64,000 bases of DNA from Sphingobium sp. WTD-1. GTDB taxonomy: Bacteria > Pseudomonadota > Alphaproteobacteria > Sphingomonadales > Sphingomonadaceae. Below, one piece after another: positions 17,714 to 32,910 of this stretch. The translations under genes and the position numbers were made by a program. Position 1 is the stretch's first letter; each line of letters begins with the position of its first letter. The notes under the pieces are model-generated. The model did not search any database, was not told the DNA's origin, and was given only the letters and a program-made list of their open reading frames with translations. Location of the stretch: the NCBI RefSeq assembly GCF_030128825.1, contig NZ_CP119127.1, positions 4,453,501 through 4,517,500 on the forward strand. The letters are read 5' to 3'.

Positions 17714-17760
17714 CGTCTTGTGTCCCATGCATGCCGCGTGCAGTCGCGGAGCGGGAAAGT

Positions 17761-17784
17761 GCGGCCGGGGTGCAGCCCGGCCGC
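17761..17784 (-). other. Hairpin in the sucD-odhA intergenic gap
   Basis: Perfect 9-bp stem GCGGCCGGG/CCCGGCCGC with a 6-nt loop, 27 nt beyond the sucD stop. No T-run follows on the coding strand, so it may be a partial terminator or a transcript-end stabiliser. Confidence 0.5.
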
Positions 17785-17811
17785 GTTTCCATATCATATT
17801 TTAAAGGCGGA

Positions 17812-18696
17812 TCAGCCCTTCAGCACTTCCAGCAGGGTCTCGCCCAGCAGGCTCGGGCTGGCAGCGACCTTGATGCCGGCCGCTTCCATCGCCGCGATCT
17901 TGCTTTCCGCGTCGCCCTTGCCGCCCGACACGATCGCGCCGGCGTGGCCCATGCGACGGCCCGGAGGCGCCGTGCGACCAGCGATGAAGCCGGCCATCGG
18001 CTTCTTGCGGCCCTTCTTGGCTTCGTCGATCAGGAACTGGGCAGCCTGTTCTTCCGCGTCGCCGCCGATTTCACCGATCATGATGATCGATTCGGTGGCG
18101 TCGTCGGCCAGGAACAGTTCCAGCACGTCGATGAAGTTGGTACCGTTGACCGGGTCACCGCCGATGCCGACGGCCGTGGTCTGGCCCAGGCCCGCATTGG
18201 TGGTCTGGAACACGGCTTCATAGGTCAGCGTGCCCGAACGCGACACGACGCCGACCGAACCCTTCGAGAAGATGTTGCCGGGCATGATGCCGATCTTGCA
18301 TTCGCCAGGCGTCAGCAGGCCGGGGCAGTTCGGGCCGATCAGGCGCGACTTCGAACCCGACAGGGCGCGCTTCACCTTGACCATGTCCAGAACCGGGATG
18401 CCTTCGGTGATCGCGACGATCAGCGGGATTTCGGCATCGATCGCTTCCAGGATCGAGTCGGCCGCGAACGGCGGCGGAACGTAGATGACCGAGGCGTCGG
18501 CGCCGGTCTTCGACTTGGCTTCGGCAACGGTGTCGAACATCGGCAGACCGATGTGGGTCGTGCCGCCCTTGCCGGGGGTCACGCCGCCAACCATCTGCGT
18601 GCCATAGGCAAGAGCGGTTTCGGTGTGGAAGGTGCCGGTGGCACCGGTCATACCCTGGGTGATGACCTTGGTGTTCTTGTTCACCAGAATGGACAT
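17812..18696 (-). CDS. sucD: Succinate--CoA ligase, alpha subunit
   Basis: Substrate-level phosphorylation step converting succinyl-CoA to succinate with ATP or GTP formation. The 294-residue product starts [15 protein letters not shown], has the CoA-binding Rossmann domain ([11 protein letters not shown]), and the active-site His region in [23 protein letters not shown] at 18696 has AAAGGG 9 nt upstream; the frame's earlier start at 18762 is unlikely. The partner beta-subunit gene sucC is not adjacent: mdh directly precedes it and odhA follows. Confidence 0.96.
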
Positions 18697-18744
18697 ATGT
18701 GTCCCTTTATTCTCTGTGGACGTGGCACTTGGGTCTAAAGCGAC

Positions 18745-18780
18745 CCGTCCCAGGCTGCGCACTTACCTGGAACGGGACGG
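18745..18780 (-). other. Inverted repeat in the mdh-sucD intergenic gap
   Basis: CCGTCCC and GGGACGG (18745-18751 and 18774-18780) form a 7-bp stem, extended by AGG/CCT across a bulge. It fills the gap where sucC stands in many other bacteria. There is no strong T-run after it. Confidence 0.4.
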
Positions 18781-18795
18781 TGCAAGCTGGTTGGC

Positions 18796-19764
<969 letters not shown>

Positions 19765-19818
19765 TCATCCTCCAAGATGTGAACTCTGGAATTGTCAGTG
19801 CGCCTACGCCCATATTGT

Positions 19819-19844
19819 GGGGGTTTCAACCAAACAAAGCCCCC
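19819..19844 (-). promoter_or_regulatory. Hairpin in the mdh leader region
   Basis: GGGGG (19819-19823) and CCCCC (19840-19844) enclose a 16-nt AT-rich loop, 61 nt before the mdh start. If the mdh promoter lies upstream this would be a leader stem-loop. Its function is unknown. Confidence 0.3.
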
Positions 19845-19892
19845 TGTGGCAAATTATCTTTGCAATTCATTCGCAGTTGCATTAGAGGCTTT

Positions 19893-19994
19893 TTCACACC
19901 CTGTCGCTCCTGGTCTCCTACCCTGGACCTAGAGCCTTCCCTGCAGCGGTAGCCTGCCGGATGCTTCCCAAGTGGAAGCATCCGGTCTGTTTTT
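19893..19994 (+). ncRNA. Candidate intergenic small RNA between mdh and zapE
   Basis: A strong intrinsic terminator on the plus strand (12-bp perfect stem CCGGATGCTTCC/GGAAGCATCCGG at 19957-19968 and 19974-19985, loop CAAGT, then TCTGTTTTT) lies between two minus-strand genes, so it ends no plus-strand gene. Upstream is a possible promoter (TTGCAA at 19860 and a weak -10 near 19883), which would give an RNA of about 100 nt. It contains pyrimidine-rich stretches (GCTCCTGGTCTCCTACCC) resembling anti-Shine-Dalgarno loops. The 5' end is a guess. On the minus strand the hairpin has no T-run. Confidence 0.35.
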
Positions 19995-20074
19995 CCGTAA
20001 GAAAGTTGCGCCCTGATGAACGTCGACGCAAGCGGCGATAGGGCGAAATGCGCGCACGACGGGGCGCGCCGCGC

Positions 20075-21187
20075 TTATTTGGGGCCGTGGCCCAGCGCAA
20101 GATAATCGTCGGACTGCATTTCCATCAGCCGCGACACCGTCCGCTCGAATTCGAACGCCCCATCCCCTTCGGGATAGAGTCGCATCGGCTCGGCGTCGGC
20201 CGAGGCGAGCAATTTGACCTTATATTCGTAGAGCGAGTCGATCAGCGTGACGAAGCGCGCTGCCTCGTTGCGCTTCTCCGGCCCCAGCACCGGGATGCCG
20301 ACGATGATGACCGTATGATATTTGCGCGCGATCGCCAGATAGTCGGGCGCACCGCGCGCCTCGACGCACAGCCGCTTGAACGAGAAGACGGCGACGCCCT
20401 TCAGGCTCTTGGGCACATGCATGGTGCGCCCGCCCTGAACGACGATCTCCTCCGAGGGCACCTTGGCCCGGTCCTCGACCGAAAAGTCGGTCAGGCGGAA
20501 GAAGGCCTCCGACAGCGCCCTGGTCGCCTCCGGCCCATTGGGCACATGCCACAGCTTCGAGTCGCCCAGGCGGTCGCGGCGATAATCGACCGGACCGTTC
20601 AGCGTCATCACATCCAGCTTCGCCTTGATGAGGTCGATGAAGGGCAGGAAGAGCTGGCGATTGAGGCCATTCTTGTAGAGCTCGTCCGGCTCGCGGTTGG
20701 AGGTGGTGACGATCGTCACCCGCTTTTCCAGCAGCCCCGTGAACAGGCGCGACATGATCGCCGCATCGGCCATATTGTTGACGACCATCTCGTCGAAGCA
20801 GAGCAGCCGCGCCTCTTCGGCCAGCGACTCGACCACCGGCGGGATCGGATCGCCCGACTCGGACTTGCGCGCCTCGGCCAGGCGGGCATGCACGTCGAGC
20901 ATGAATTCATGGAAATGGGCGCGCTTCTTGCGCTGGACATGGACCGTGTCGAAGAACAGGTCCATCAGCATCGACTTGCCGCGCCCGACCCCACCCCACA
21001 TATAGAGGCCCCGCGGCGGCTCGGGCTGCTTGCGCAGCAGCTTCCACAGCGTCGAGCCACGCGCCGGCGTCGCTTCCAGATCATGCTGAAGCTGGTCGAG
21101 TCGCACGGCGGCGGCACGCTGGTCCGGGTCGGGCCGCAATTCACCAGCCGCGACCAGCGCATCATAACGGGCGATAACGCTGGTCAC
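20075..21187 (-). CDS. zapE: AFG1/ZapE-family ATPase
   Basis: Cell-division-linked ATPase (ZapE in E. coli, AFG1/LACE1 in mitochondria), reported to act at the Z-ring under stress and in turnover of respiratory subunits. The 370-residue product has the Walker A GGVGRGKS at 65-72 and a Walker B LLCFDEM. The start is GTG at 21187, overlapping the thioesterase stop in a GTGA. The frame continues to 21598, but that part is only the shadow of the thioesterase gene. Its position after sdhB fits the AFG1 link to respiratory complexes. Confidence 0.92.
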   Translation of the reverse strand: MTSVIARYDALVAAGELRPDPDQRAAAVRLDQLQHDLEATPARGSTLWKLLRKQPEPPRGLYMWGGVGRGKSMLMDLFFDTVHVQRKKRAHFHEFMLDVHARLAEARKSESGDPIPPVVESLAEEARLLCFDEMVVNNMADAAIMSRLFTGLLEKRVTIVTTSNREPDELYKNGLNRQLFLPFIDLIKAKLDVMTLNGPVDYRRDRLGDSKLWHVPNGPEATRALSEAFFRLTDFSVEDRAKVPSEEIVVQGGRTMHVPKSLKGVAVFSFKRLCVEARGAPDYLAIARKYHTVIIVGIPVLGPEKRNEAARFVTLIDSLYEYKVKLLASADAEPMRLYPEGDGAFEFERTVSRLMEMQSDDYLALGHGPK

Positions 21188-21645
21188 TGCGCCTTGGGCG
21201 CCTTGCGCAGCGTGGCGGTGGACGCGGCGACCGGCTCGCCCTCCTGGGTGATCAGCATGCGCAGGAACATGAGGCGCCCGGTCTCGCGCAGCAATTCCAC
21301 CTCGGCCAGCAGGTCGGGACCGACCTTGCCCGCGCCCAGATATTGCATCGACAGGTCGATGGTTACACCGTTCACCTGATCGCGATAACCCATCGCCCAC
21401 AGGCCGCCAAAATAGGCATGGTCGGCAAAGGCGGCGAGGAAGCCGCCATGCAGCGTATCGAGCCGGTTGCGGTGGCTGGTGCGGGTTTCCAGCGCGACAT
21501 GCGCCTTCTTCTCGCCCAGCCCGCGCATATAGCCCCGGCCGATGGCCTGCAGGAAGGTGTCGGGATGCGGATCGTGCCAGGCAGTCCAGCCCGACCATTT
21601 CCCTTCGTTCAGCGGTCGCCCGCCTGCAACACCGTCGCTGGTCAA
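21184..21645 (-). CDS. PaaI-like hotdog-fold thioesterase
   Basis: Hotdog-fold acyl-CoA thioesterase of 153 residues. The signature is HGGFLAAFADHAYFGGLWA on the central helix, with the Asp/His pair of the PaaI group, and GVTIDLSMQYLGAG in the following strands. The start is probably TTG at 21645, only 1 nt after the sdhB TAA; there is no clear ribosome-binding site, so the exact start is uncertain. Middle gene of sdhB-thioesterase-zapE. The acyl-CoA substrate is unknown. Confidence 0.82.
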   Translation of the reverse strand: MTSDGVAGGRPLNEGKWSGWTAWHDPHPDTFLQAIGRGYMRGLGEKKAHVALETRTSHRNRLDTLHGGFLAAFADHAYFGGLWAMGYRDQVNGVTIDLSMQYLGAGKVGPDLLAEVELLRETGRLMFLRMLITQEGEPVAASTATLRKAPKAQ

Positions 21646-21646
21646 C

Positions 21647-22435
21647 TTACAGCTGCCGTTCGACCATCATCTTCTTGGTCTCCGCGATCGCCTTGGCCGG
21701 GCTCAGGCCCTTGGGGCAGACGTTCGCGCAGTTCATGATGGTGTGGCAGCGATAGAGGCGGAAGGGATCTTCCAGCTCGTCGAGGCGCTCGCCGGTGAAC
21801 TCGTCGCGGCTGTCGGCCAGCCAGCGATAGGCCTGCAGCAGGATCGCCGGGCCCAGGAACTTGTCGCTGTTCCACCAGTAGCTGGGGCAGCTGGTCGAGC
21901 AGCAGGCGCACAGGATGCACTCATAGAGGCCATCCAGCTTCTCGCGATCGGCGGGCGACTGCAGCCGCTCCTTGCCGCTCGGCGCCGGGCTGACGGTTTG
22001 CAGCCAGGGCTTGATGCTGTTGTACTGGGCGTAGAAGTGGGTGAAGTCCGGCACCAGATCCTTGATGACGTCCATGTGCGGCAGCGGGGTGATCTGCACC
22101 TGCTTGCCGGCGCACTCGTCGATCGCGGTGGTGCAGGCTAGGCCGTTCTTGCCGTTCATGTTCATCGAGCAGGAACCGCAAATGCCCTCGCGGCACGAAC
22201 GACGGAAGGTCAGGGTCGAGTCATACTCGTTCTTGATCTTCAGCAGCGCGTCGAGAACCATCGGCCCGCAATTGTCGAGATCGATCTCGAACGTGTCGTA
22301 GCGCGGATTCTCGCCCGAGTCCGGATCGTAGCGATAGACCTTGAAGCTGCGGACATTGGTCGCGCCCTCGGGCGCCTTGTGGGTCACGCCCTTGCCGCTG
22401 ATCTTGCTGTTCTTGGGCAAAGCAAATTCGGCCAT
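21647..22435 (-). CDS. sdhB: Succinate dehydrogenase iron-sulfur subunit
   Basis: Electron-transfer subunit of complex II, carrying electrons from the SdhA flavin to quinone. The 262-residue product has all cluster ligands: the [2Fe-2S] set CREGICGSC with the later CTTAIDEC, and the two C-terminal motifs [12 protein letters not shown] and [20 protein letters not shown] at 22435 ([11 protein letters not shown]) is chosen; the frame runs to 22558 without support. sdhC, sdhD and sdhA are not upstream, since the next gene is divergent, so sdhB has its own promoter in 22436-22699 and is first in an operon with a thioesterase and zapE. Confidence 0.95.
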
Positions 22436-22699
22436 CGCTCGTCGAGCCTCTTCGTCGATGTCTGTCTGATGGGGGTCCGCATAACGAAAAATCTGCAAAG
22501 GTCCAGCACTGAGACCATGTTTCTGCCCCTGCGCCTCCTTGTTGCAAATCGCTTGCAAATAAAGCGGCTTCCGGGGGGCTATTGCTTGCTTCCTTCGCCA
22601 TGCGCGCTAGAGCGGGGCGACCTGCCCGGATCGTCATGGCGATCATGGCCGGGGAAGTAATGCCCCTGCGGCGGCGAATATCTGTGGGGACCGCATTCA

Positions 22700-23779
22700 T
22701 TGCCGATCGACATCTCCTTTCTTGCCATCGCCGAAGCGCAGCAGGTGTTCCACTGGCTGCCGGCCGCGCTTGAACTGGGCAAGCGCGCGGATGTCCGCGT
22801 CCATGTACTCTCGCCCTCGCGCCTGATTCTCGATCTGGTCGCCAGCTATGATCCCGACGGGCGGCTCGACCTCATCAAGCTGCGCCGTCCTTCGACCAAG
22901 CCCGATTCCCTGTTCCGCCTGCCCTCGCGGCTGGCGACGCTGCTGCTCAACTATCGCGCCATCGCCCGCTTCCCGACCCTGGTAACGACGGAGATCACCA
23001 GCGCCTGGCTGAAACGGATGCCCGGCTTTGCCACGCGCCTGATCCTGATCAAGCATGGCGCGGGCGACCGGGCCGGCGGCTACAAGCAGCGCCACGCCGA
23101 TTTCGACCTGACCATCGTCGCGGGCGAGAAGGACCGGCGGCGGATGATCGAATATGGCCTTTGCACCGAAAACAATTGTCTGGTCGGCGGCTATGCCAAA
23201 TTCGAACTGCGCGCGCCGCGCCGGCCCTTGTTCGACGATGACAAGCCGGTGCTGCTGTACAATCCGCATTTCGACCCCGACCTGTCCTCCTGGGTCAATG
23301 ATGGACCGCAGGTCATGGCCGCGCTCGAAGCGCTGCAGGGCTGGAACGTCATCATCGCGCCGCATGTGAAGCTTGCCCGTCGCATCCCGCCGATCCACAG
23401 CGACAGCCCGCATATCCGTGTCGACATGGGCAGCCGCCACTCGATCGACATGAGCTACACGACCAGCGCCGACGCCTATCTGGGCGACGTGTCGAGCCAG
23501 GTTTACGAGTTTCTGCTCACCCCCCGCCCCTGCATCTTCCTCAACCTCGACCATCATGACTGGCGCGCGGATCAGGCCTTCGCCCATTGGCGTCTGGGTC
23601 AGGTGATCGACCGCGCCGATGCGCTTCAGGGCGCGCTCGATCGGGCAGCGGACTTGCAACCGGGCCTTGTTGCTGCTCAGGAAGCGGCAATGCAGGATAG
23701 TATCGATCTTTCCCCGGTCCCCGCCTCGCAGCGGCAGGCCGCCCTCATCCTCGATTTTGCGCAGAAGGCACAGGCATGA
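22700..23779 (+). CDS. CDP-glycerol glycerophosphotransferase-like (TagF/TagB family) protein
   Basis: Predicted to transfer a polyol-phosphate unit from a CDP donor. The 359-residue product has a GT-B-like layout with the family's blocks: KHGAGDRAGGY (118-128, His119), NPHFDPD (188-194), a PHVK segment (221-224) and the hallmark DVSSQVYEFL (263-272) that binds the CDP side. It is shorter than Gram-positive teichoic-acid polymerases, suggesting a single-unit transferase. TTG start with GGGGA 9 nt upstream. It overlaps the next gene by ATGA. Family membership is fairly clear; the acceptor and donor are unknown. Confidence 0.72.
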   Translation: MPIDISFLAIAEAQQVFHWLPAALELGKRADVRVHVLSPSRLILDLVASYDPDGRLDLIKLRRPSTKPDSLFRLPSRLATLLLNYRAIARFPTLVTTEITSAWLKRMPGFATRLILIKHGAGDRAGGYKQRHADFDLTIVAGEKDRRRMIEYGLCTENNCLVGGYAKFELRAPRRPLFDDDKPVLLYNPHFDPDLSSWVNDGPQVMAALEALQGWNVIIAPHVKLARRIPPIHSDSPHIRVDMGSRHSIDMSYTTSADAYLGDVSSQVYEFLLTPRPCIFLNLDHHDWRADQAFAHWRLGQVIDRADALQGALDRAADLQPGLVAAQEAAMQDSIDLSPVPASQRQAALILDFAQKAQA

Positions 23780-24879
23780 TGCAGACGATCAGCACCACCC
23801 TCGGCCCGGTTCGCCTGCTCGGCAAGAACGCGACCCCGATCTGGGGCATGTCCAACGCCGAACGCAATCGCCGCATGGCGGAAAGCGCGGCCAAGAATGG
23901 CAGCATGCTGGCGCCGGGCCATGAACTGGTCTTCAACCTCGCCTATGCCTTCGATCCGCTGCTGCTGCGGCTGGTGCTGGAAACGCCCGGCACGATGTTC
24001 GCCTGGGCCGGCCAGCCGATCGTCGGTCAGGTGCCCGCGGGCAGCGACCCGATGCAGGCCAGCGGCCTCATCGACCTGTCGGACGGGCGCAAGCTCTACA
24101 ATCGCCAGCTGCGCAAGCTGGAACAGCCGATGGTGCGCGAACTGGTGCCCCAAACCCGCAAGGCGATCGAGCGGCAAAGCTATTTCGGCGCCTATAAGGG
24201 CGTGACCGACCTGCTGACCAAATATCTCTGGCCCGAACTGGCGCTGATCCTGACGCGGATCGCCGCGCAGCTGAAGATGACGCCGAACATGGTGTCGGTG
24301 ATCGGCGTGACGCTCTGCCTCGTCGCCACCTTCCTGTTCGCCAAGGGGCTGTTCTGGACCGGCTTCCTGTGCGGCTTCATCTTCATGGTGCTGGACACGG
24401 TGGACGGCAAGCTCGCGCGCTGCACCATCACCTCGTCCAAATGGGGCAATGTGATCGACCATGGCGTCGACCTGGTCCACCCGCCCTTCTGGTGGTATTT
24501 CTGGGGCGTGGGCCTCACCTATTGGGGGCTGGGCCTGTCGGCCGGCACCTTCACCTTCATCATGACCGCCGTGATCGCCGGTTATATCCTCCAGCGCCTG
24601 ATCGAGGGGATGTTCCTCAAGGACTTCAAGATGGACATCCATGTGTGGCGTCCGTTCGACAGCCAGTTCCGCCTGATCACCGCGCGCCGCAACCCGAACA
24701 TGGTGATCCTGTTCGTGGCGCTGCTGTTCGGCCGGCCCGACATCGGCCTGATCGCGCTTGCCTGGTGGACCATCATCTCGCTGGTCGTACATGCCGTGCG
24801 CCTCGCCCAGGCCTATATCGTCCACCGCTCCGGCCGGCCGATCGTCAGCTGGATGGACGAAGCGGAAGCCGCCGCATGA
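23776..24879 (+). CDS. CDP-alcohol phosphatidyltransferase with an extra N-terminal domain
   Basis: Membrane transferase of 367 residues. The complete CDP-alcohol motif is present: D207, D210, G211, A214, R215, G224, D228, D232. About six membrane segments span 170-345. Residues 1-140 are soluble and unusual for the family. The junction (KYLWPELALILTRIAAQLKMTPN) resembles that in fused nucleotidyltransferase-phosphatidyltransferases such as IPCT-DIPPS of hyperthermophiles, but the N-terminal part lacks a nucleotide-binding G-x-G-x-R motif and looks shrunken. It probably joins a CDP-activated alcohol to an unknown acceptor. Overlaps both neighbours by ATGA. Confidence 0.82.
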   Translation: MMQTISTTLGPVRLLGKNATPIWGMSNAERNRRMAESAAKNGSMLAPGHELVFNLAYAFDPLLLRLVLETPGTMFAWAGQPIVGQVPAGSDPMQASGLIDLSDGRKLYNRQLRKLEQPMVRELVPQTRKAIERQSYFGAYKGVTDLLTKYLWPELALILTRIAAQLKMTPNMVSVIGVTLCLVATFLFAKGLFWTGFLCGFIFMVLDTVDGKLARCTITSSKWGNVIDHGVDLVHPPFWWYFWGVGLTYWGLGLSAGTFTFIMTAVIAGYILQRLIEGMFLKDFKMDIHVWRPFDSQFRLITARRNPNMVILFVALLFGRPDIGLIALAWWTIISLVVHAVRLAQAYIVHRSGRPIVSWMDEAEAAA

Positions 24880-25307
24880 ACGCCACCATCGCGAAATTCG
24901 GCTGGCCCGCGACGCTGGTTGCCGAGTTCGACCATTGGGTCGTGTTGCTGCGCCCGGCCCAGCCGACGCTGGGATCGCTGGTGCTGGCCGCCAAGAGCGA
25001 CGCGACCGCGTTCGGCGAGCTGCCGGGCGCGGCCCATGCCGAACTCAAGACCGTGACCGCAGCGATCGAGGCGGCACTGACCCGTGCTATAGGCTATGCC
25101 AAGATCAATTATCTGATGCTGATGATGGTAGACCCGCACGTCCATTTCCACGTCATCCCCCGTTATGAAGGGGAGCGCAGCATCGCCGGCCTGACCATTG
25201 CCGACGCCGGTTGGCCAAGCCAGCCCGACCTGGGCGCAGCGGTCAAGATTGACAGCGAAAATGACACGGCGCTGCGTGATTGGCTGAAGGGCTATTTCGC
25301 CGCCTGA
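24876..25307 (+). CDS. HIT-family hydrolase/transferase
   Basis: Histidine-triad protein of 143 residues with the active-site motif HVHFHVIPRY (HxHxH followed by two hydrophobic residues) in the second half. HIT proteins cleave or transfer nucleoside monophosphates from nucleotide-linked metabolites. Third gene of a unit with two ATGA overlaps, so its substrate is probably a nucleotide product or intermediate of the CDP-dependent reactions encoded upstream; this link is inference. The start ATG at 24876 sits in the upstream stop. Confidence 0.82.
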   Translation: MNATIAKFGWPATLVAEFDHWVVLLRPAQPTLGSLVLAAKSDATAFGELPGAAHAELKTVTAAIEAALTRAIGYAKINYLMLMMVDPHVHFHVIPRYEGERSIAGLTIADAGWPSQPDLGAAVKIDSENDTALRDWLKGYFAA

Positions 25308-25316
25308 CCAAGCCGA

Positions 25317-26348
25317 TCAGGGCCGGAAGGTCAGGCTCAGCACGAAGCGGTTCGAGTCCTTGCCCCAATTATATTCGGCCTGCATCGCCCAGTGGCTGGA
25401 CAGTTCCAGATTGGCGCCACCGATCGCGGCCCAGGGCCGGCTGCTCTTGAGGTCGACCTTGTAGCGCAGGTTGACACCATCACCGTCCTCGAACAGCGCG
25501 CCGCTGCGGACCAGGCCCGACACGGTCACGTCCATGTCGTAATAATTGGCACCGACATAGGGTGTCAGCATGACATCCTTGCCCAGCGCAAAGCGCGGGC
25601 CGACGCGGCCGGCGATGTTGGTCATCTTCATGTCGGACCGGTCCTTGGACGACACGCTGATCGTCTTGGCCAGCGACAGGGCTGCGAACCAATGGTTCGT
25701 CCCATAGCCCACTATGCTGCCGACCGTGAAAGACGTGTTGTCGACATTGGCGGTGAACGGCAACTGGCTATGGCCGCAGGGCTTGGCGGGGCGGCAGAAG
25801 GGAAAAGGCACGAAGGCATCGAGGTCGATGTCGACACCGACATTGACATGCCCCTTCACCTTGCCGATCCCGGCAAACAGGTTGAGGAAGGGGAACAGCC
25901 AGACGTCCGCCTTGAATTCGGTGTTGCTGCTGTGGCTTTCCATCTGTGTCGTGGTGACGAAGGGCACTTCCAGCAATGCCCCCCCTGCCGGCGGATCCTC
26001 GCCTTTGGCGATGGCAACCGCCAGGTTTCGGCTGTCCATATTCTGGACATTGTGGATCAGCATGCCGCTGGCGCCCAGCGCCCGCTGGATATGATAGCCG
26101 CGCTCGATCGCCGCGCGCCCGCCAATCGGCAGCAGCGGATATTTCTCGCGCTCAGGCGGTGCGGGCGCCGGTTCCGTGGCCACCGTCGGCACAGCCGGAT
26201 CGGCAGGGCCGCTGGCCGTGCCGGCATCGGTCGCGACCTGGGTAATGATCGGGACAGGCGGCAAGTCCTGCGCCTGCGCCTGCGCCCGGCCGGCCAGGCC
26301 CAACGGCGCGGCCAGCATCGTGACGGATAGCAGCGTCAATCCTCGCAT
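25317..26348 (-). CDS. Outer-membrane beta-barrel protein, unknown family
   Basis: A 343-residue secreted protein with a signal peptide (LLSVTMLAAPLGLAGRAQAQ). A Pro/Ala-rich spacer follows to about residue 70, then alternating hydrophobic strands ending RFVLSLTFRP, a typical outer-membrane insertion signal with aromatic residues near the C-terminus. Two cysteines (CRPAKPC) sit in a predicted loop. The start ATG at 26348 has AGGGG 9 nt upstream. It is divergent from another outer-membrane gene (26524) with 175 nt between starts. No specific family recognised. Confidence 0.68.
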   Translation of the reverse strand: MRGLTLLSVTMLAAPLGLAGRAQAQAQDLPPVPIITQVATDAGTASGPADPAVPTVATEPAPAPPEREKYPLLPIGGRAAIERGYHIQRALGASGMLIHNVQNMDSRNLAVAIAKGEDPPAGGALLEVPFVTTTQMESHSSNTEFKADVWLFPFLNLFAGIGKVKGHVNVGVDIDLDAFVPFPFCRPAKPCGHSQLPFTANVDNTSFTVGSIVGYGTNHWFAALSLAKTISVSSKDRSDMKMTNIAGRVGPRFALGKDVMLTPYVGANYYDMDVTVSGLVRSGALFEDGDGVNLRYKVDLKSSRPWAAIGGANLELSSHWAMQAEYNWGKDSNRFVLSLTFRP

Positions 26349-26523
26349 CGCCATCATCCCCTGTCCCCCGGCGCACCTCGCTCTTTCGGTGCCAAGCACA
26401 CTATATGCGGGAAAGCCCGCCGCCTGGCTTCTGGGTAATTTCCCCGCGACGACTGCACATTTCTCCCGATATCGCCGCCCTCGCCTTCCTCTAGGCTGGT
26501 CCCATATGACAGGGAGACATGGC

Positions 26524-27729
26524 GTGCGACACGCGCTGGCCGGGCCGAGCCTGATGATGTGCCTGGGCATGGCCCTGCCCGCCGCCGCCCAGAACACGCC
26601 TTCGCGCGAGATTATGGACCAGGCGCAAAGCGTGCAGGCCAGTGAGACGAAGGCTGACGACCGCACAGAGCCCCCCACCCCGGATGCCACTCTTCCCTTG
26701 GCGCCCCCGAGCACCAAGCCGGATCTGGTGATCGCGCCGATTCCACTGTCCAATCCGGCAATGGGCACCGGCCTCGCGGGTGCGGCGATACTCTATTATA
26801 ACCCCAACGGCTCCTCCCGCCCTTGGATCAGCGGCATTGGCGGCGGCTATACCAGCACTGACAGTTGGGGCGTCGGGGTCTCGCACAACATGACGCTGGC
26901 GGACGACCGGCTGCGCTTCCAGGGCTGGGCCGGTTATGGTGTCGCCAATCTGCGCTTCTATGGCATCGGCGCCAATGCCGGTGCATCCAACCTGTCGATC
27001 AAGCTGCGCGACAAGGCCTTCGCCGCCATGGTGGACACCCAATATCAAATCTTCAGCAAAGGCTTCCTGCGCCACCTCTCCTTTGGCGCACGCCTCTATT
27101 ATCTGAACATGGACGCCCGCGCCTCGCTACCGCTGCCCAATCATCCCAACCTGACACCACCGGCGATCGAGCGACACAGCCAGATTTCGATGCTCGGCCC
27201 CTCCTTCACCTTCGACAGCCGCAACAATCCGGTCGATCCGCGCAAGGGCGTCTACACCACGGGATCTTTGACCTATGGCGCCGACTGGCTGGGCAGCGAC
27301 TTCACCCATCACAAGTTGCAGATCGCGGGCAATGGCTATTTCCCGCTGGGGCGCGAAACCGTGCTGGTGGTGCGCAAGACACTGTGCGAGGCGTCGGACG
27401 GCGCGCCTTATTATGACCTGTGCCTCTATGGCCAGAATGGCGACCTGCGCGGCTATGAGACCGGCCGCTATCGCGACCGGGCCAGTTGGGCGTTGCAAGG
27501 CGAGGTCCGCCAGCATCTGTTCGGCAAGATCGGCATGGTCGCGTTCGGCGGCGTCGGCGGCATTGCGCGCAGCGGCAAGGATATCTGGAAACATACCAAG
27601 ATGCTGCCGGCCGGCGGCTTTGGCCTGCGCTATCTCGCTTCGAAGGATGCCAATGTGAATCTGCGGGCCGACATTGCCTGGGGCAAGGACGGCGCCGCTT
27701 TCTATTTCGGGATCGGGGAAGCCTTTTAG
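26524..27729 (+). CDS. BamA/Omp85-like surface-antigen barrel protein (no POTRA domains)
   Basis: A 401-residue outer-membrane barrel of the bacterial surface antigen (Omp85 C-terminal) type. A signal peptide ends PAAAQ; a low-complexity Pro/Thr segment follows; beta strands then run to the C-terminus (AFYFGIGEAF, terminal Phe). The strand-rich GPSFTFDSRNNPVDPRKGVY matches the Omp85 'FDTRDNPxxPxxG' signature, and GDLRGYETGRYRD matches its conserved LRGY loop. There is no room for POTRA domains. GTG at 26524 has AGGGAG 7 nt upstream; ATG at 26506 is an alternative. The cargo is unknown. Confidence 0.75.
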   Translation: MRHALAGPSLMMCLGMALPAAAQNTPSREIMDQAQSVQASETKADDRTEPPTPDATLPLAPPSTKPDLVIAPIPLSNPAMGTGLAGAAILYYNPNGSSRPWISGIGGGYTSTDSWGVGVSHNMTLADDRLRFQGWAGYGVANLRFYGIGANAGASNLSIKLRDKAFAAMVDTQYQIFSKGFLRHLSFGARLYYLNMDARASLPLPNHPNLTPPAIERHSQISMLGPSFTFDSRNNPVDPRKGVYTTGSLTYGADWLGSDFTHHKLQIAGNGYFPLGRETVLVVRKTLCEASDGAPYYDLCLYGQNGDLRGYETGRYRDRASWALQGEVRQHLFGKIGMVAFGGVGGIARSGKDIWKHTKMLPAGGFGLRYLASKDANVNLRADIAWGKDGAAFYFGIGEAF

Positions 27730-27733
27730 GCGC

Positions 27734-28504
27734 TCACGCGCCGTAGCGCCCTGCTTCCACCCATTTCTCGGTGAGCGCATTGGCCGCATCGACATCCTGC
27801 GGGAAATCGACTTCCTGCCACTCCAGCCCCTCGATCGACACGGTGCCGACCCGGTTGCCCTTGGCGATGATGTCGATCGCGCGCAGATACCAGCGGGCGA
27901 CGCCTTCGGGCGTGCGCATCATCTGGTCGACCTGGTTGCGGAAGATCGCCGGCCCTTCGCCCACGAACGCCAGCATGCCGATCGATTCGGCATTGGTGTC
28001 GGGCGGCAGCAGCCGCTTGCCGATATGGTGCAGGCGACCGCTCTCGTCCCGGCTCACCTTCATGTCGTCATCGTCATAGTCGCCGTCGGGCTTCACATCG
28101 ACGGTGACGGTGATCGCGTCCTTGGCACCCGAGACCAGCTTCGCGACGATCTCGTCCGACACGATGGTGTCGCCGTTCAGGATGATGAAGTCCTGATCCA
28201 TCTCCTCGCGCGCGATCCAGCAGCTGCCCAGATTGTCGGCGACCTGGAAGAAGGGATTGAACAGCGTGCGAATGCGCGCGCCGGTCTCGCGATAGAGTTG
28301 CAGCGCATGATCCTCGACCCGCTCGGTGCGGAAGCCGGTGACGACGACGATGTCGGTCACGCCATTGGCGACCAGCGCGGCGATCTGCCAGCTGATCAGG
28401 GTGCGGCCGTTGAAGTCGATCATGCACTTGGGCACGTCACGGGTCAGCGGCAGCAGGCGCGAACCCTGGCCGGCGGAGAGGATGATGGCTTTCTTGATGG
28501 TCAT
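27734..28504 (-). CDS. Sugar/alcohol-phosphate nucleotidyltransferase (COG1213-like)
   Basis: Nucleotidyltransferase of 256 residues with the signature LSAGQGSRLLPLTRDVPKCMI (catalytic Lys26) and the metal-binding ILNGDTIV. It resembles enzymes that make CDP-activated choline, inositol or related alcohols, and less closely hexose-phosphate uridylyltransferases. Its product could be the CDP-alcohol used by the phosphatidyltransferase at 23776; this is inference from context. Divergent from the flippase gene with 126 nt between. Confidence 0.75.
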   Translation of the reverse strand: MTIKKAIILSAGQGSRLLPLTRDVPKCMIDFNGRTLISWQIAALVANGVTDIVVVTGFRTERVEDHALQLYRETGARIRTLFNPFFQVADNLGSCWIAREEMDQDFIILNGDTIVSDEIVAKLVSGAKDAITVTVDVKPDGDYDDDDMKVSRDESGRLHHIGKRLLPPDTNAESIGMLAFVGEGPAIFRNQVDQMMRTPEGVARWYLRAIDIIAKGNRVGTVSIEGLEWQEVDFPQDVDAANALTEKWVEAGRYGA

Positions 28505-28630
28505 GCCCGCGCTTTAGAGCGATTTCGCAGCGCAGGGAAGAGAAGGACGCATTTGCGCAATGCGCCGCCCTTCCCTAGATAGACGCCCGCCAGCAACAAA
28601 CGGCGTGTCACGCGAAAGGCTCCTGTTCCG

Positions 28631-29977
28631 GTGAAGTTGAAGCGCGCAAAGGGTAGCAGCGCACAGGATGGCTTTGCCCGTATCCTGGCCAATACCGGCT
28701 GGCTGCTGGGCGGCAAGGGCGTGGGCGCGGTACTGAGCCTTGCCTATCTCGCCATTGTCACCCGCACGCTGGGCGTCGCCGATTTCGGCCGCTTCGCGCT
28801 GGTGCTGAGCGCCGCCAACGTCATCAAGACGCTGGTGTCCTTCGACAGCTGGCAGATCGTCGTGCGCTATGGCCAGCCGCATCTGGCGGACGGCAATGGC
28901 AACGCGCTCAACCGGGTGCTGCGTTTCTGCATCCTGATCGATCTCGCCTCGGCCTTGGCCGGAGGCCTGATCGCCGCGATCATCATCCTGGCCTTTGGCA
29001 ACCAGCTGCAACTGGGGCCGGGCATGGGGCTTCAGGCCTGGCTGTTCTGCATGGTGATGATGATCACCATCCGCTCCTCCCCCACCGGCATATTGCGCCT
29101 GTTCGACCGGTTCGATTCGGCCGCCGTCGCCGAAACCATGATCCCGGTCGGGCGGATGATCGGCGCAGGCCTGGCCCTGGCCCTGATGCCCGGCATCACC
29201 GGCTTCCTGATCGCCTGGGGCGGCGCCGAACTGCTGTGTGCGGCGGCCTATTGGTATCTTGCCCTGCGCGAAGGCAAGGGTCGGCTCGGCAGCTGGACCG
29301 CCGGCCGGGCGCTTGATGCACGCCACGAAAATCCCGGCATCGTCGGCTTCCTGACCGCCACCAACCTGCAGACCAGCCTGTCCGCCATGGGACAGCAGGT
29401 CGCGGTGCTGGTCGTCGGCCTGTTCGTCGGGCCGGTGGGCGCGGGCCTCTATCGCCTTGCCAACCAGCTCGCCCAGTCGCTGACCAAGATTTCCAGCCTG
29501 CTCTCGCGCAGCATCTTCGTCGAACTGTCGCGCACCCAGTCCAGCCATGGCGTGGATGCGTTGCGGTCCCTGTTCCGCCAGACCAACCGGCTGGCGCTGA
29601 TCGCGGGCGCCATCATTATCGCGCTGATCCTGACCATCGGCCATCCGCTGCTGGGCCTGATCGCGGGCAAGGAATTCCTGCCCGCCTATCCGCTGCTGAT
29701 GCTGCTGGGCGTATCGGCCTGTATCGACCTGGTCGGGGTCAGCTATCGCCCGCTGCTAATGGCGACCGACCGGGCCGGCCTTTCGCTGCGCATTACCTTT
29801 GCCTCCACCCTGCTGCTGTTGGGGATGCAGGCGGTGCTGCTACCGATGAACGGCACGATAGGCGCGGCGATCGCCAATATCGTCGCCTCGATCGCCGGGT
29901 TTCTGATGATGGGCCTGGCGACGCGCCGCGCGCTGGCATTGCGCGATCCGTTGCCGCCGGAACCCGGCGCAAACTGA
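28631..29977 (+). CDS. Lipid-linked oligosaccharide flippase-like membrane protein (Wzx/MurJ superfamily)
   Basis: A 448-residue polytopic protein with about twelve hydrophobic segments. The start of the first repeat (LANTGWLLGGKGVGAVLSLAYLAI then RTLGVADFGRFALVLS) is typical of polysaccharide export flippases of the MOP superfamily. It probably moves a lipid-linked glycan or polyol-phosphate unit to the periplasmic face. GTG start at 28631. It sits between two nucleotidyltransferase genes, supporting a role in making a surface glycoconjugate. The cargo is unknown. Confidence 0.83.
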   Translation: MKLKRAKGSSAQDGFARILANTGWLLGGKGVGAVLSLAYLAIVTRTLGVADFGRFALVLSAANVIKTLVSFDSWQIVVRYGQPHLADGNGNALNRVLRFCILIDLASALAGGLIAAIIILAFGNQLQLGPGMGLQAWLFCMVMMITIRSSPTGILRLFDRFDSAAVAETMIPVGRMIGAGLALALMPGITGFLIAWGGAELLCAAAYWYLALREGKGRLGSWTAGRALDARHENPGIVGFLTATNLQTSLSAMGQQVAVLVVGLFVGPVGAGLYRLANQLAQSLTKISSLLSRSIFVELSRTQSSHGVDALRSLFRQTNRLALIAGAIIIALILTIGHPLLGLIAGKEFLPAYPLLMLLGVSACIDLVGVSYRPLLMATDRAGLSLRITFASTLLLLGMQAVLLPMNGTIGAAIANIVASIAGFLMMGLATRRALALRDPLPPEPGAN

Positions 29978-30062
29978 GCGGCACCAGCCCGCCATCCCTG
30001 GATCGAGGGGGAGAGGAACGACGCACTGGTGCCGCGCCCGGTTCAGCCTGATGAGACCGGGC
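29978..30062. terminator. Paired hairpins between convergent genes
   Basis: The region holds a 10-bp inverted repeat GCGGCACCAG/CTGGTGCCGC (29978-29987 and 30026-30035) and a 7-bp stem GCCCGGT/ACCGGGC (30036-30042 and 30056-30062). It lies between the ends of two converging genes and may terminate both. Confidence 0.45.
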
Positions 30063-30071
30063 TAGGGAAAT

Positions 30072-30434
30072 TCAATAATATTTGAAGGCGGTGACGACGC
30101 CATTCTGGGTGCTGCATTTGAAGGTCTTCTTGACCGTCTTCTGCTTGCCGTCCTTTTCGATCACGACATTGACCAGCGCACGCACGGCGCCGCGGCTGTC
30201 GCTCTTCTTGTCGGTATCCTCGACCTCGCGCAGGGTGACGTCAATCACGCCCTTCTTGGCCCCCTGAGCCTTGGCCTCATTCAGGCAAGCCGCGACCGAA
30301 ACGTCGCGGGAGTCGCCGCTGACCGGGGTAACCGGCGTCGGTGCCGGCGGCGCAGCGGGCGTTTCTGGTGCGGCCTGCGCCATCAGAGCGAGGGTGGCGG
30401 GCAACAAAGTCGCCAGGGGCAGAATCTTGCGCAT
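30072..30434 (-). CDS. Small secreted protein, unknown function
   Basis: A 120-residue protein with a clear signal peptide (MRKILPLATLLPATLALMAQA) and a Pro/Ala/Thr-rich spacer. A compact basic domain (about 45-120) follows, with alternating charged and hydrophobic residues and two cysteines (VAACLNEA, FKCST) that may form a disulphide. GGGAG lies 7 nt before the ATG. I recognise no family. It probably acts in the periplasm. Confidence 0.65.
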   Translation of the reverse strand: MRKILPLATLLPATLALMAQAAPETPAAPPAPTPVTPVSGDSRDVSVAACLNEAKAQGAKKGVIDVTLREVEDTDKKSDSRGAVRALVNVVIEKDGKQKTVKKTFKCSTQNGVVTAFKYY

Positions 30435-30539
30435 GCGGGTGCTCCCTTCATCGGGCCCATCTGCCGGGTCCGATTGGTTCTAGCATGCAGCCAAAGCGCG
30501 CGGCATCGGGAATAACCCGATAGGGAAGCGCCCTGCGCC

Positions 30540-31331
30540 TTAGCGCGCGAGGATGGATTCGATCAGCACGATGTCGTCGGGCTTGTCGGCATCGATACAG
30601 GCCTCTGCCTGATCCATCGCCACCAGCCGCGCCGTCAGGCCGAAACGCCGCCCCACCCGCGCAATGCCGCCGCGCAGGGTCAGGATGCGCAGCAACGCGC
30701 CAACCAGCGCCAGCGGGCCGAAGGCGGACAATATCTTCCAGCCCTTCTTGCGGTCCTGTTCGACATCCTGCCACAGCGCGATCACCGGCCGTGCCCTGGC
30801 GCTGCCGAACCAGAAGATGTTCGCGCCCGACCACCAGCCGTCGCGAAATTTGAGCCAGGTGCGGCGCGACTGCGGATAATGGGCCAGCAGGGTCGTCTTC
30901 TCGACCATGGCGACGGCGATGTCGGCGTCCGTCGCCTCCGCCACGAACTGGTCCAGCATCGCCGCGTCGAGCAGCACATGGTCGGCTGTGGTCATCAGCA
31001 GCGGGAAAGGCAGGTCCGCCTTTTCCATCAGCTCCAGCAGAGAGGAGGCAATGCCCTTGCCGCCGCGCTCGAACCGCACGCGCGGATCGCTCGCCAGCCA
31101 GGCGGTGGCCGGATCATCGGCGAAATATTCGGGATTCTGCGTCAGCACTACCAGCTGGCCGATCGCCGGATGGGCGAGCAATGCGCGTGCCGGGCGGTTG
31201 ATCATCGGCTCGCCTGCGACCGGCACCAGCGGCTTGACCGGTACGCCGGCAGCGGTGGCGAGCGGATCGGCGATCGGCCGCGCGCCGGCCAGCAGGATCG
31301 CGGTGATGGTGGCGGGATGAGGGGATGTCAT
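30540..31331 (-). CDS. MobA-like nucleotidyltransferase
   Basis: NTP-transferase of 263 residues. The signature is ILLAGARPIADPLA followed by VPVKPLVPVAGEPMI, with the conserved Lys at 33; the metal-binding Asp is in TTADHVLLD. A basic, partly hydrophobic C-terminal third (about 190-240, LALVGALLRILTLRGG) could touch the membrane. It lies 40 nt downstream of the M23 peptidase on the same strand and near the flippase and another nucleotidyltransferase, so a role in building a surface polymer is plausible. The substrate is unknown. Confidence 0.72.
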   Translation of the reverse strand: MTSPHPATITAILLAGARPIADPLATAAGVPVKPLVPVAGEPMINRPARALLAHPAIGQLVVLTQNPEYFADDPATAWLASDPRVRFERGGKGIASSLLELMEKADLPFPLLMTTADHVLLDAAMLDQFVAEATDADIAVAMVEKTTLLAHYPQSRRTWLKFRDGWWSGANIFWFGSARARPVIALWQDVEQDRKKGWKILSAFGPLALVGALLRILTLRGGIARVGRRFGLTARLVAMDQAEACIDADKPDDIVLIESILAR

Positions 31332-31371
31332 GCCCGCTCGTTAGCCGAGCGAGCCACCGCCGCAAAGCCGC

Positions 31372-32910
31372 TTATTTCCCCGCAGCGGCTGGTGCGCCAG
31401 CGGTCGGCGCGGCCGCCGCCACCTCATGCGTGCCGACCTTCAGCCCCTTGAGCTGGGCCAGGCGCGCGCGGAAGGCGGCCAGATCGCTGCCGGTCAGCTG
31501 CGCCGTCGTGGTGAACTTCACCGACAGCGGATTGACCACCTGGCCACCCCGATACAGCTCATAATGAAGATGCGGACCGGTCGACAGGCCGCTGGAACCG
31601 ACATAGCCGATCACCTGGCCGCGCCGCACCCGCTGGCCCGGTACCGCCGCGATCCGGCTCATATGGGCATAGCCGGTGGCCAGGCCGCCGCCATGGGAAA
31701 TGCGGACATAATTGCCATGGCCGCCATGGCGGCCGGCAAAGGCAACCACGCCATCGGTCACGGCATAGATGGGCGAACCATAGCGCGCGCCGAAATCGAT
31801 GCCGGCATGCATGCGGGTATAGCCCAGGATCGGATGGCGGCGCATGCCGAAGCCCGACGTCATTCGCCCGCCGTCGACCGGCGCGCCCAGCACGCCGCGT
31901 TTTTCGCCCACGCCCGATGCCTCGAACCATTCGGTGCGGCCGTCGCTGGTCCATTTCAGCATGTCGACCGCCTTGCCCCGCGCCCGGCGGAAACCGGCGT
32001 AGAGCAGCTCGCCGACCTCGACATCGCCGGTTTCGGCGCGATGATATTCGGTGATGATGTCATAGCGGTCGCCTGCGCCGATCGATCCCAGATCGACCTG
32101 CTTGGCAATCACCCGCAGGAAGGCCTGCACCGCCTTGGGCGGCGCGCCGGCGGCGCGGGCCGAGCGATAGATGCTGTCGCCGACCACGCCCTGGATGCGC
32201 AGTGGGGTATTGTCGACGCGAATGGGCACGCGCGTCACCTGCAGCACGCCGCCGACCCGGTTGAGTTCGACCGCCAGGTCGAGCCGCGCGCGGAAATTGA
32301 GCTTGTCGAGCGGCCGGGGCGACGTGCGGCTGGCACGCCGGCCCAGGATGATGTCGAGCCGGGTGCCCGGCTTCACGCCTGCGCCGATGTCGCCGCCGAC
32401 CATGCTGGTCACGGTCGCGACATCGCCGCTGCTGACGCCGGCACGCGACAAGGCGCGAGCCAGCGTGTCGCTGCTGCCGATCTGGGCATTGAGTTCGATC
32501 TGCGGGCGCTCGGGCGTTTCCTTGAGCGGCTGCACCGCGTCGATCGCGCCCATCCGCCGGCCGCTGTCCGCGCCCAGCGCCAGCGGCGTGATCATCTGGC
32601 TGCGCACCTCGTCATATTGCGCTGGCGTCAGCAGGGGTTCGGGCGCGCCGGGCACCGGCTGGAAACCGGGCGAGAGATAGAGGGCGGTGGCGCACAGGCC
32701 AAAACAGGTGGCAAGGCCGCGAAACCAGGTAAGGCTGCCGACATTCTGCCCCAGGTCCGGGACCAGATTGACGTCCTCTGCCCAGTCGCGCAGGCGCGTG
32801 CGCCAGTCGCGCGGCACCGCCGGTCGCTGCAGGCTGTCCGCCAGCCATAGCGACATGGACGCGCCACCGTGCTGAAAACCCGACTGATTATCCTGGAACA
32901 AAAGCCGCAA
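31372..32910 (-). CDS. M23-family (LytM-like) peptidoglycan endopeptidase
   Basis: Envelope protein of up to 512 residues. A basic N-terminal segment and one membrane anchor (about 62-80) precede a long periplasmic region with a LysM/OapA-like part. The C-terminal LytM domain (about 355-460) has metal ligands in MHAGIDFG and HLHYEL. These enzymes cut peptide cross-links in peptidoglycan or activate amidases during division. The longest frame starts with TTG at 32910; ATG at 32856 is an alternative. A perfect CtrA-type box lies 83 nt upstream of the TTG. Confidence 0.88.
   Translation of the reverse strand: MRLLFQDNQSGFQHGGASMSLWLADSLQRPAVPRDWRTRLRDWAEDVNLVPDLGQNVGSLTWFRGLATCFGLCATALYLSPGFQPVPGAPEPLLTPAQYDEVRSQMITPLALGADSGRRMGAIDAVQPLKETPERPQIELNAQIGSSDTLARALSRAGVSSGDVATVTSMVGGDIGAGVKPGTRLDIILGRRASRTSPRPLDKLNFRARLDLAVELNRVGGVLQVTRVPIRVDNTPLRIQGVVGDSIYRSARAAGAPPKAVQAFLRVIAKQVDLGSIGAGDRYDIITEYHRAETGDVEVGELLYAGFRRARGKAVDMLKWTSDGRTEWFEASGVGEKRGVLGAPVDGGRMTSGFGMRRHPILGYTRMHAGIDFGARYGSPIYAVTDGVVAFAGRHGGHGNYVRISHGGGLATGYAHMSRIAAVPGQRVRRGQVIGYVGSSGLSTGPHLHYELYRGGQVVNPLSVKFTTTAQLTGSDLAAFRARLAQLKGLKVGTHEVAAAAPTAGAPAAAGK

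Follow-up and report, generated by a model that had tools for sequence, protein, structure and literature searches.

A Sphingobium locus that probably encodes the headgroup part of a ceramide phosphoglycerate-type sphingolipid pathway, with an added TagF-like transferase

The closest described system to the locus analysed here is the Caulobacter pathway that makes ceramide phosphoglycerate (CPG) and ceramide diphosphoglycerate (CPG2) (PMC12275187, PMC11324152), the latter supporting viability of this bacterium without lipopolysaccharide (LPS) (PMC12275187). According to the published accounts, ceramide is phosphorylated by the kinase CpgB (CC_1160), CPG formation depends on CpgC (CC_1161), and CpgA is required for CPG2 through a reaction that is itself a proposal. 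CpgD (CC_1152, CCNA_01210) is a COG1213-type CTP:phosphoglycerate cytidylyltransferase that converts CTP and phosphoglycerate, preferably 2-phospho-D-glycerate, to CDP-glycerate, CC_1166 is a potential flippase, and export of the lipid has been proposed to run through an additional set of LptC, LptF and LptG (PMC12275187, PMC11324152, PMC13228409). The CofC-like nucleotidyltransferase CC_1153, whose gene lies next to cerS in Caulobacter, is also required for CPG2, a "so-far unknown" enzyme is supposed for CPG formation, and the orthologs of Sphingomonas wittichii are scattered over six distant regions (PMC11324152). We analysed a 64,000-nucleotide stretch of Sphingobium sp. WTD-1 DNA (contig NZ_CP119127.1; hereafter, the window), located at 4.45 Mb on contig 1 of a 5.67-Mb genome, and within it the locus at positions 22700-31331 (Table 1). 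This locus is likely to supply the headgroup steps in the synthesis of a phosphosphingolipid, in a sphingomonad form of the Caulobacter CPG/CPG2 pathway to which a TagF-like transferase (TagFl) has been added.

The locus shares with the Caulobacter CPG2 pathway CpgA, CpgD, a CC_1153-type nucleotidyltransferase and a flippase, and candidates for Spt, CerS, CpgC and LptF2/G2, together with a weak one for CpgB, lie in the remainder of the genome. It differs in that the genes are scattered over the genome, the slot adjoining CpgA is variable, TagFl falls outside the described gene list, and the HIT-family protein goes unnamed in the text of the Caulobacter papers. The initial annotation had listed the same genes and two ATGA overlaps. 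All were found in place by open reading frame (ORF) and Pfam analysis, the overlaps being TagFl/CpgA at 23776-23779 and CpgA/HIT at 24876-24879. Its statement that no named Gram-negative pathway holds this set does not stand, since the Caulobacter pathway includes CpgA, CpgD, the CC_1153-type enzyme and a flippase (PMC12275187, PMC11324152). What is new is the TagF-like protein as a partner of CpgA, outside the published gene list, the CPG2 pathway itself being already known; as far as open-literature searches show, this partner is undescribed. Among the papers listed in these searches, none links a TagF-like enzyme to sphingolipids or describes this locus in Sphingobium.

Phylogeny, neighbourhood and active-site residues identify the CDP-alcohol phosphotransferase of the window as the predicted CpgA ortholog. 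In a tree of 76 rows, the window enzyme and the genes in the CpgA position (beside cpgB/cpgC; 62 rows) were split from a paralogue on the lptF2G2 side (14 rows) by a branch with 100/100 support, and the possibility that the window enzyme is this paralogue was rejected on the same branch. The DGxxAR...GxxxDxxxD motif is intact in the window CpgA and in 61/61 best CDP-alcohol matches examined, and in Hephaestia (locus L062) the genes for CpgD, HIT, CpgA, CpgB, CpgC and the MobA-like enzyme are adjacent in this order. The structural model of CpgA (predicted local distance difference test, pLDDT, 94) had the two-domain protein AF2299 (4o6m) as its best structural match. CpgA shares the two-domain layout and membrane fold of the AF2299 and IPCT-DIPPS CDP-alcohol phosphotransferases (4o6m, 4mnd), but its cytidylyltransferase is a separate protein (CpgD) and its predicted lipid acceptor is different.

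A second CDP-alcohol phosphotransferase was observed in ten sphingolipid loci (L031, L034, L036, L038, L041, L047, L057, L058, L064 and L096), where it lies on the LptF2/G2, hydroxylase or CerS side and forms a clade separate from that of CpgA. This paralogue could be the enzyme supposed for CPG formation in PMC11324152. One database protein assigned to the fungus Friedmanniomyces endolithicus (P0079) shows 99% identity to CpgA of the window, with 84% of the query covered, and the record is probably bacterial contamination of the assembly.

The COG1213-type enzyme is, by the same three kinds of evidence, the predicted CpgD ortholog. In C. crescentus CpgD, Gly12, Arg16, Asn90, Thr93, Asn110, Gly111, Met147, Lys161, Ser170 and Trp201 are placed near CTP, magnesium or glycerate (PMC13228409, a preprint), and Lys26 and Asp112 are described as active-site residues (PMC12275187). 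The counterparts in the window protein, identified by matching order and spacing to the published positions, are G12, R16, K26, N91, S94, N110, G111, D112, M148, K163, S174 and W205, with Thr93 replaced by Ser (S94). Relatives of CpgD are located in loci with spt, cerS, cpgB, cpgC and lptFG2. The initial annotation had treated the genes as a set expected to co-occur in related genomes, and the core genes do so: CpgA and CpgD were concordant in 61/61 genus genomes, 50 of which carry the two genes and 11 neither (CpgD E <= 1e-40, CpgA E <= 1e-20; Fisher p 2e-12, shared ancestry ignored). This count includes G341, whose CpgD-like protein is 37-38% alike, and G306, with CpgD in two pieces; matches with internal stops (CpgA of G307; CpgD of G318, G331 and G352) were counted as present.

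The link to sphingolipids comes from gene neighbourhoods. The window families were searched by tblastn in 18 stretches from other alphaproteobacteria, and then in these together with three stretches of the same genome and 80 named loci, representing 80 of 446 CpgD relatives; some of the fetched stretches end at contig ends (e.g., L168, L177 and L204). In relatives, the families adjoin spt, cerS, cpgB and cpgC as well as genes for a fatty acid hydroxylase, for a metallophosphoesterase and for two permeases of the LptF/G type, and in L039 the neighbours by Pfam are DAGK_cat, LptF_LptG, Metallophos, FA_hydroxylase and HIT. The Spt, CerS, CpgB, CpgC and two LptFG queries gave one or more matches in 30 of the 80 named loci and three or more in 20, and CpgA was matched in 48 and HIT in 49 of the 80. 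Among loci titled with Sphingomonadales genera, sphingolipid-gene matches were confined to L062 and L103, in agreement with the published scattered layout. Within the window genome itself, a relative of Spt, 50% identical to that of L031, is encoded at 2.4436 Mb with a CpgC relative (42%) close by at 2.4407 Mb, and the stretch at about 2.26 Mb holds CerS and two LptF/G genes along with a weak match to CpgB.

The remaining genes of the locus follow this pathway to different extents. The HIT protein, with the motif HVHFHVI (HxHxHxx in 32/54 HIT ORFs, as called by a crude script), is encoded on the CpgA strand in all 40 genus loci holding both genes. In L039, L040, L047, L058, L064 and L096 the HIT gene lies between a phosphoesterase and an LptF/G gene, comparable to CC_1157 between CC_1158 and CC_1156, a position suggesting that CC_1157 may be a HIT protein; CC_1157 was called probably unrelated, without high cofitness, in PMC11324152. 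No CC_1158-type phosphoesterase was present among the window genes scanned, to which the search was confined. The flippase is present in 46/49 genus loci, and a related flippase stands beside TagFl and aasR in loci of the L161/L162 type. The MobA-like enzyme is assigned by sequence to the CC_1153 type, with matches of 31-38% beside cerS in sphingolipid loci; its gene was detected in 14/49 genus stretches, which extend just 3 kb on that side.

The pair of outer-membrane barrel genes, which the initial annotation had counted as members of the pathway, is a lineage-specific insertion between HIT and CpgD. It was found in 5/49 genus loci, namely those of the window and of the four relatives closest to it. 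In L115, L118, L119 and L126 the CpgD and HIT genes overlap, the gap elsewhere in the genus ranging from a few bases to more than 1 kb. A single pathway including both barrels was rejected on these grounds. The functional logic of the annotation holds for the core, which fits activation of an alcohol phosphate with CTP, transfer to a lipid and flipping, and fails for the barrels, which lie outside it. In Sphingobium arseniciresistens (L133:11145-14022), the gap of the barrel pair is occupied by the gene of a LysR-like regulator and by a large gene resembling those of dehydratases, as judged by eye.

For TagFl, the question is whether it belongs with these genes at all. CPG2 might be made exactly as in Caulobacter, with TagFl serving a separate capsule or exopolysaccharide pathway and being a neighbour by chance or through a shared promoter. 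We regard this alternative as unlikely in view of the conserved arrangement. TagFl adjoins CpgA in 45 of the 50 CpgA-bearing genus genomes, and it lies upstream of CpgA on the same strand in 35/35 genus loci measured by script (window included; gap of at most 101 bases in 33) and in 44/45 genomes by listed positions, the exception being G341. In nine genomes lacking CpgA in the stretch around CpgD, CpgA was found elsewhere, again beside TagFl, and in the window the two genes are joined by the ATGA overlap mentioned above. The association extends to ceramide operons of other alphaproteobacteria. A class-wide draw of 289 genomes gave CpgA in 76 and TagFl in 13 at E <= 0.001; with strong matches defined, after viewing the gap in the lists, as E < 1e-60 for CpgA and E < 1e-80 for TagFl, TagFl is strong in 11 genomes and CpgA is strong in 8 of these, against 22/289 overall (both genus and class sets being draws from larger groups). 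Among the ten strong-TagFl genomes besides that of the window, TagFl is near sphingolipid genes in four: it stands between the flippase and aasR-cerR-acp-spt, or the start of this series, in G146 and G227, about 7.5 kb from CpgA in G170, and in G282 (L155:1563-17465) within a sphingolipid locus containing two TagFl genes, a flippase, a MobA-like gene, CpgB, CpgC and CerS.

This last locus also bears on a second alternative, overlapping with our own reading, in which TagFl replaces a CPG step, for instance that of CpgA, instead of extending the product. G282 is in its favour, since together with two TagFl genes it has no strong CpgA match in the genome (best 2.7e-4) and no CpgA or CpgD match in the 20-kb stretch. 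The window genome, however, holds CpgA, CpgD and a CpgC match together with TagFl, and we consider a replacement quite unlikely.

Further support for a functional connection between TagFl and CpgA was obtained from the slot beside CpgA, which is not always occupied by the same gene. The five genomes in which TagFl does not adjoin CpgA have in this position a family 4 glycosyltransferase (three genomes: on the CpgA strand in G356 and G304, on the opposite strand in G324, which was taken as the genome of L119 on the 100% identity of the matching glycosyltransferase), a methyltransferase of the FkbM type, also encoded opposite to CpgA (G307, where the CpgA match is interrupted by a stop), or no gene at all (G352). 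The comparison of slot types used 32 of 49 loci (24 TagF1, 5 TagF2 and 3 GT4), after dropping 9 without CpgA in the stretch, 2 with another or no slot gene and 6 that fell short of the 85% threshold for CpgD or of the required five genes; L196 was assigned to TagF1 despite an intervening, weakly glycosyltransferase-like gene. CpgA distance was 0.320 between slot types and 0.176 within them, whereas the corresponding values were 0.086 and 0.079 for CpgD, 0.184 and 0.186 for the flippase, and 0.058 and 0.075 for SdhB. After regression on flanking genes, the residual difference for CpgA was 0.093 (p 0.0002, 5000 label shuffles), and the residual p values for the other genes were 0.002 for HIT, with a weaker effect, 0.12 for CpgD, 0.80 for the flippase and 1.00 for SdhB, all of them optimistic as the tree was left unmodelled. 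Thus, CpgA sequence tracks the slot type and CpgD, flippase and SdhB sequences do not, a pattern that argues against TagFl being a chance neighbour. A single genome, G341 (L211:7204-10139), shows paired divergence of TagFl (30%) and of the nucleotidyltransferase (37%), which lacks the Asn of its ADN motif, while CpgA (69%), flippase (62%), MobA (56%) and SdhB (89%) are better kept; this is expected if TagFl uses the product of the local cytidylyltransferase.

O-antigen and capsule loci have transferase genes that are exchangeable between conserved flanks. The slot beside CpgA resembles them in its conserved flanks and swapped middle transferase, and differs from them in that the predicted acceptor is a ceramide lipid.

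The sequence and fold of TagFl are consistent with a transferase related to the wall teichoic acid polymerases. A profile of 13 TagFl relatives searched against the PDB matched the TagF-like Cps3D (E 0.015) and TarL (E 0.019), with the D-x-S-S motif aligned; HGAGDR, APH and GD.SSQVYE are invariant in 34 sequences, and the model adopts a glycosyltransferase B (GT-B) fold with pLDDT 88. With TagF/TarL (PF04464; 3l7i, 8va1), TagFl thus has in common the fold, the aligned motif and weak profile matches, and it departs from them in its score below the Pfam cut-off, its one short domain, its alphaproteobacterial origin, its place beside sphingolipid headgroup genes and its probable donor, which would be CDP-glycerate and not CDP-glycerol. 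PF04464 is carried by 12 of the 120 homologues listed, and a search of the window genome for this family returned no member at E <= 0.001.

In the mechanism that we propose, CpgD would make CDP-glycerate, the reaction known for the Caulobacter enzyme, and CpgA would add phosphoglycerate to CPG, as proposed in that organism. TagFl would use a CDP-activated unit as the donor of one or more phospho-alcohol groups to the headgroup of CPG/CPG2, which would thereby be extended or capped. The donor is most simply CDP-glycerate, since CpgD is the sole predicted maker of a CDP-alcohol among the locus genes. CDP-glycerol is less likely: no TagD-type gene was found among the window genes scanned, to which this search was confined, and Caulobacter CpgD does not use glycerol-1-phosphate, glycerol-3-phosphate being absent from the substrate list given for it (PMC12275187). 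The flippase, a candidate counterpart of CC_1166, would turn the product over and LptF2/G2 would send the lipid to the outer membrane; HIT may hydrolyse or process nucleotidyl intermediates or leftovers. It is possible, although the balance lies against it, that the ceramide headgroup of Sphingobium and its relatives is a poly(phosphoglycerate) resembling teichoic acid, or is TagF-extended in some other way, with a finishing transferase exchanged between species that would give a variable, O-antigen-like surface lipid.

Several observations weigh against the assignment of the locus, and of TagFl in particular, to sphingolipid synthesis. Orthology to the C. crescentus genes rests on neighbourhood, tree and residue order; a cpgD cloning primer was unmatched in 17 genomes (the first 7 included) of a family guessed to be near Caulobacter, and in 212 loci. 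The CpgB match of the window genome, beside LptF/G and cerS, is the weakest assignment (26-29%, E 3e-18), and no report of CPG for Sphingobium was found in the open-literature search. TagFl scores below the PF04464 cut-off (15.6 vs 22.1 bits), and the TagF chain 3l7l_D, with the highest template modelling (TM) score, 0.67, among the 50 matches listed, is only tenth by E-value; UDP-GlcNAc 2-epimerases reach 0.65. The reaction of TagFl is therefore not fixed by its fold alone, which is a generic GT-B fold to which 2-epimerases are nearly as similar. In G341, TagFl lies on the strand opposite to CpgA, convergent with it, and HIT was not found in the stretch.

Distribution adds to these points, and it is here that a separate TagFl pathway draws its support, besides the 5/50 CpgA-bearing genus genomes in which TagFl does not adjoin CpgA. 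No strong TagFl is present in 14 of the 22 class genomes with strong CpgA. Six of the ten other class genomes with strong TagFl (G047, G076, G193, G213, G231 and G265) have TagFl in stretches without a sphingolipid gene, beyond one weak Spt-like match in G047. A TagFl relative occurs in 7 of the 11 CpgA-less genus genomes, and the window genome has a second copy (C1:2776160-2777269; L152:9094-10329) adjoining the gene of a family 4 glycosyltransferase, with a Mutator-family transposase in the vicinity. The loci without sphingolipid genes speak against TagFl being exclusive to the sphingolipid pathway.

In a further alternative, the general idea of the initial annotation, the product would be a surface glycan of glycerol phosphate or polyol phosphate, carried by a phospholipid or by undecaprenyl instead of ceramide. 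TagF, a CDP-alcohol transferase, a nucleotidyltransferase and a Wzx-like flippase could serve such a pathway, and the match of the COG1213 enzyme to an inositol-phosphate cytidylyltransferase model lends it something. It is nevertheless very unlikely, given that the CpgA, CpgD, HIT and MobA families recur next to spt, cerS, cpgB and cpgC across several groups of proteobacteria, that the glycerate contacts of CpgD are conserved, and that no polysaccharide polymerase or export gene was found among the Pfam-scanned genes at 14918-32910.

Table 1. Genes of the Sphingobium locus and its flanks (window positions).
Feature	Position	Strand	Evidence or remark
TagFl, TagF/TarL-like GT-B transferase (TTG start; variable slot)	22700-23779	+	PF04464 E=0.0079, 15.6 bits
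Predicted CpgA ortholog, CDP-alcohol phosphotransferase with N-terminal domain	23776-24879	+	PF01066 E=1.1e-8
HIT-family hydrolase/transferase, usual CpgA neighbour	24876-25307	+	PF01230 E=1.3e-4
Outer-membrane barrel protein, non-core	ORF 25317-26768	-	PF13505; true start probably inside ORF
Omp85-superfamily barrel protein, non-core	ORF 26176-27729	+	PF01103; true start probably inside ORF
Predicted CpgD ortholog, COG1213-type, predicted CTP:phosphoglycerate cytidylyltransferase	27734-28504	-	Residue counterparts, neighbourhoods of relatives
Wzx-like flippase, divergent from CpgD; candidate CC_1166 counterpart	28631-29977	+	PF01943, PF13440
Small hypothetical protein	30072-30434	-	Among genus stretches, only in the window and its 4 closest relatives
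MobA/CofC-like nucleotidyltransferase, predicted CC_1153 type	30540-31331	-	PF12804
Succinate dehydrogenase iron-sulfur subunit (SdhB); flank, outside system	21647-22558	-	
M23 peptidase; flank, outside system	31372-32910	-	

The region at 14918-22558 of the window, on the minus strand, has an ordinary content: 2-oxoglutarate dehydrogenase E1, succinyl-CoA ligase, a dehydrogenase of the malate/lactate type, ZapE, a thioesterase and SdhB. The long ORF of ZapE overlaps the thioesterase gene, so that the listed ZapE start is probably wrong.

CPG2 synthesis is only partly understood, and the locus described here places the headgroup genes of the pathway in Sphingobium. It adds two candidate enzymes, the TagF-like transferase and the HIT protein, to a list in which several members lack proven function, and reveals one position that is exchanged between species. 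These bacteria are described as having sphingolipids in place of LPS (PMC11165598); with the slot beside CpgA exchanged from one species to another, the head of the outer lipid would differ by species. If the TagF-like enzyme does extend the headgroup of a sphingolipid, the sphingolipids of Gram-negative bacteria would be built on a principle shared with the teichoic acids of Gram-positive ones, and the surface variation of sphingomonads would gain a genetic handle.

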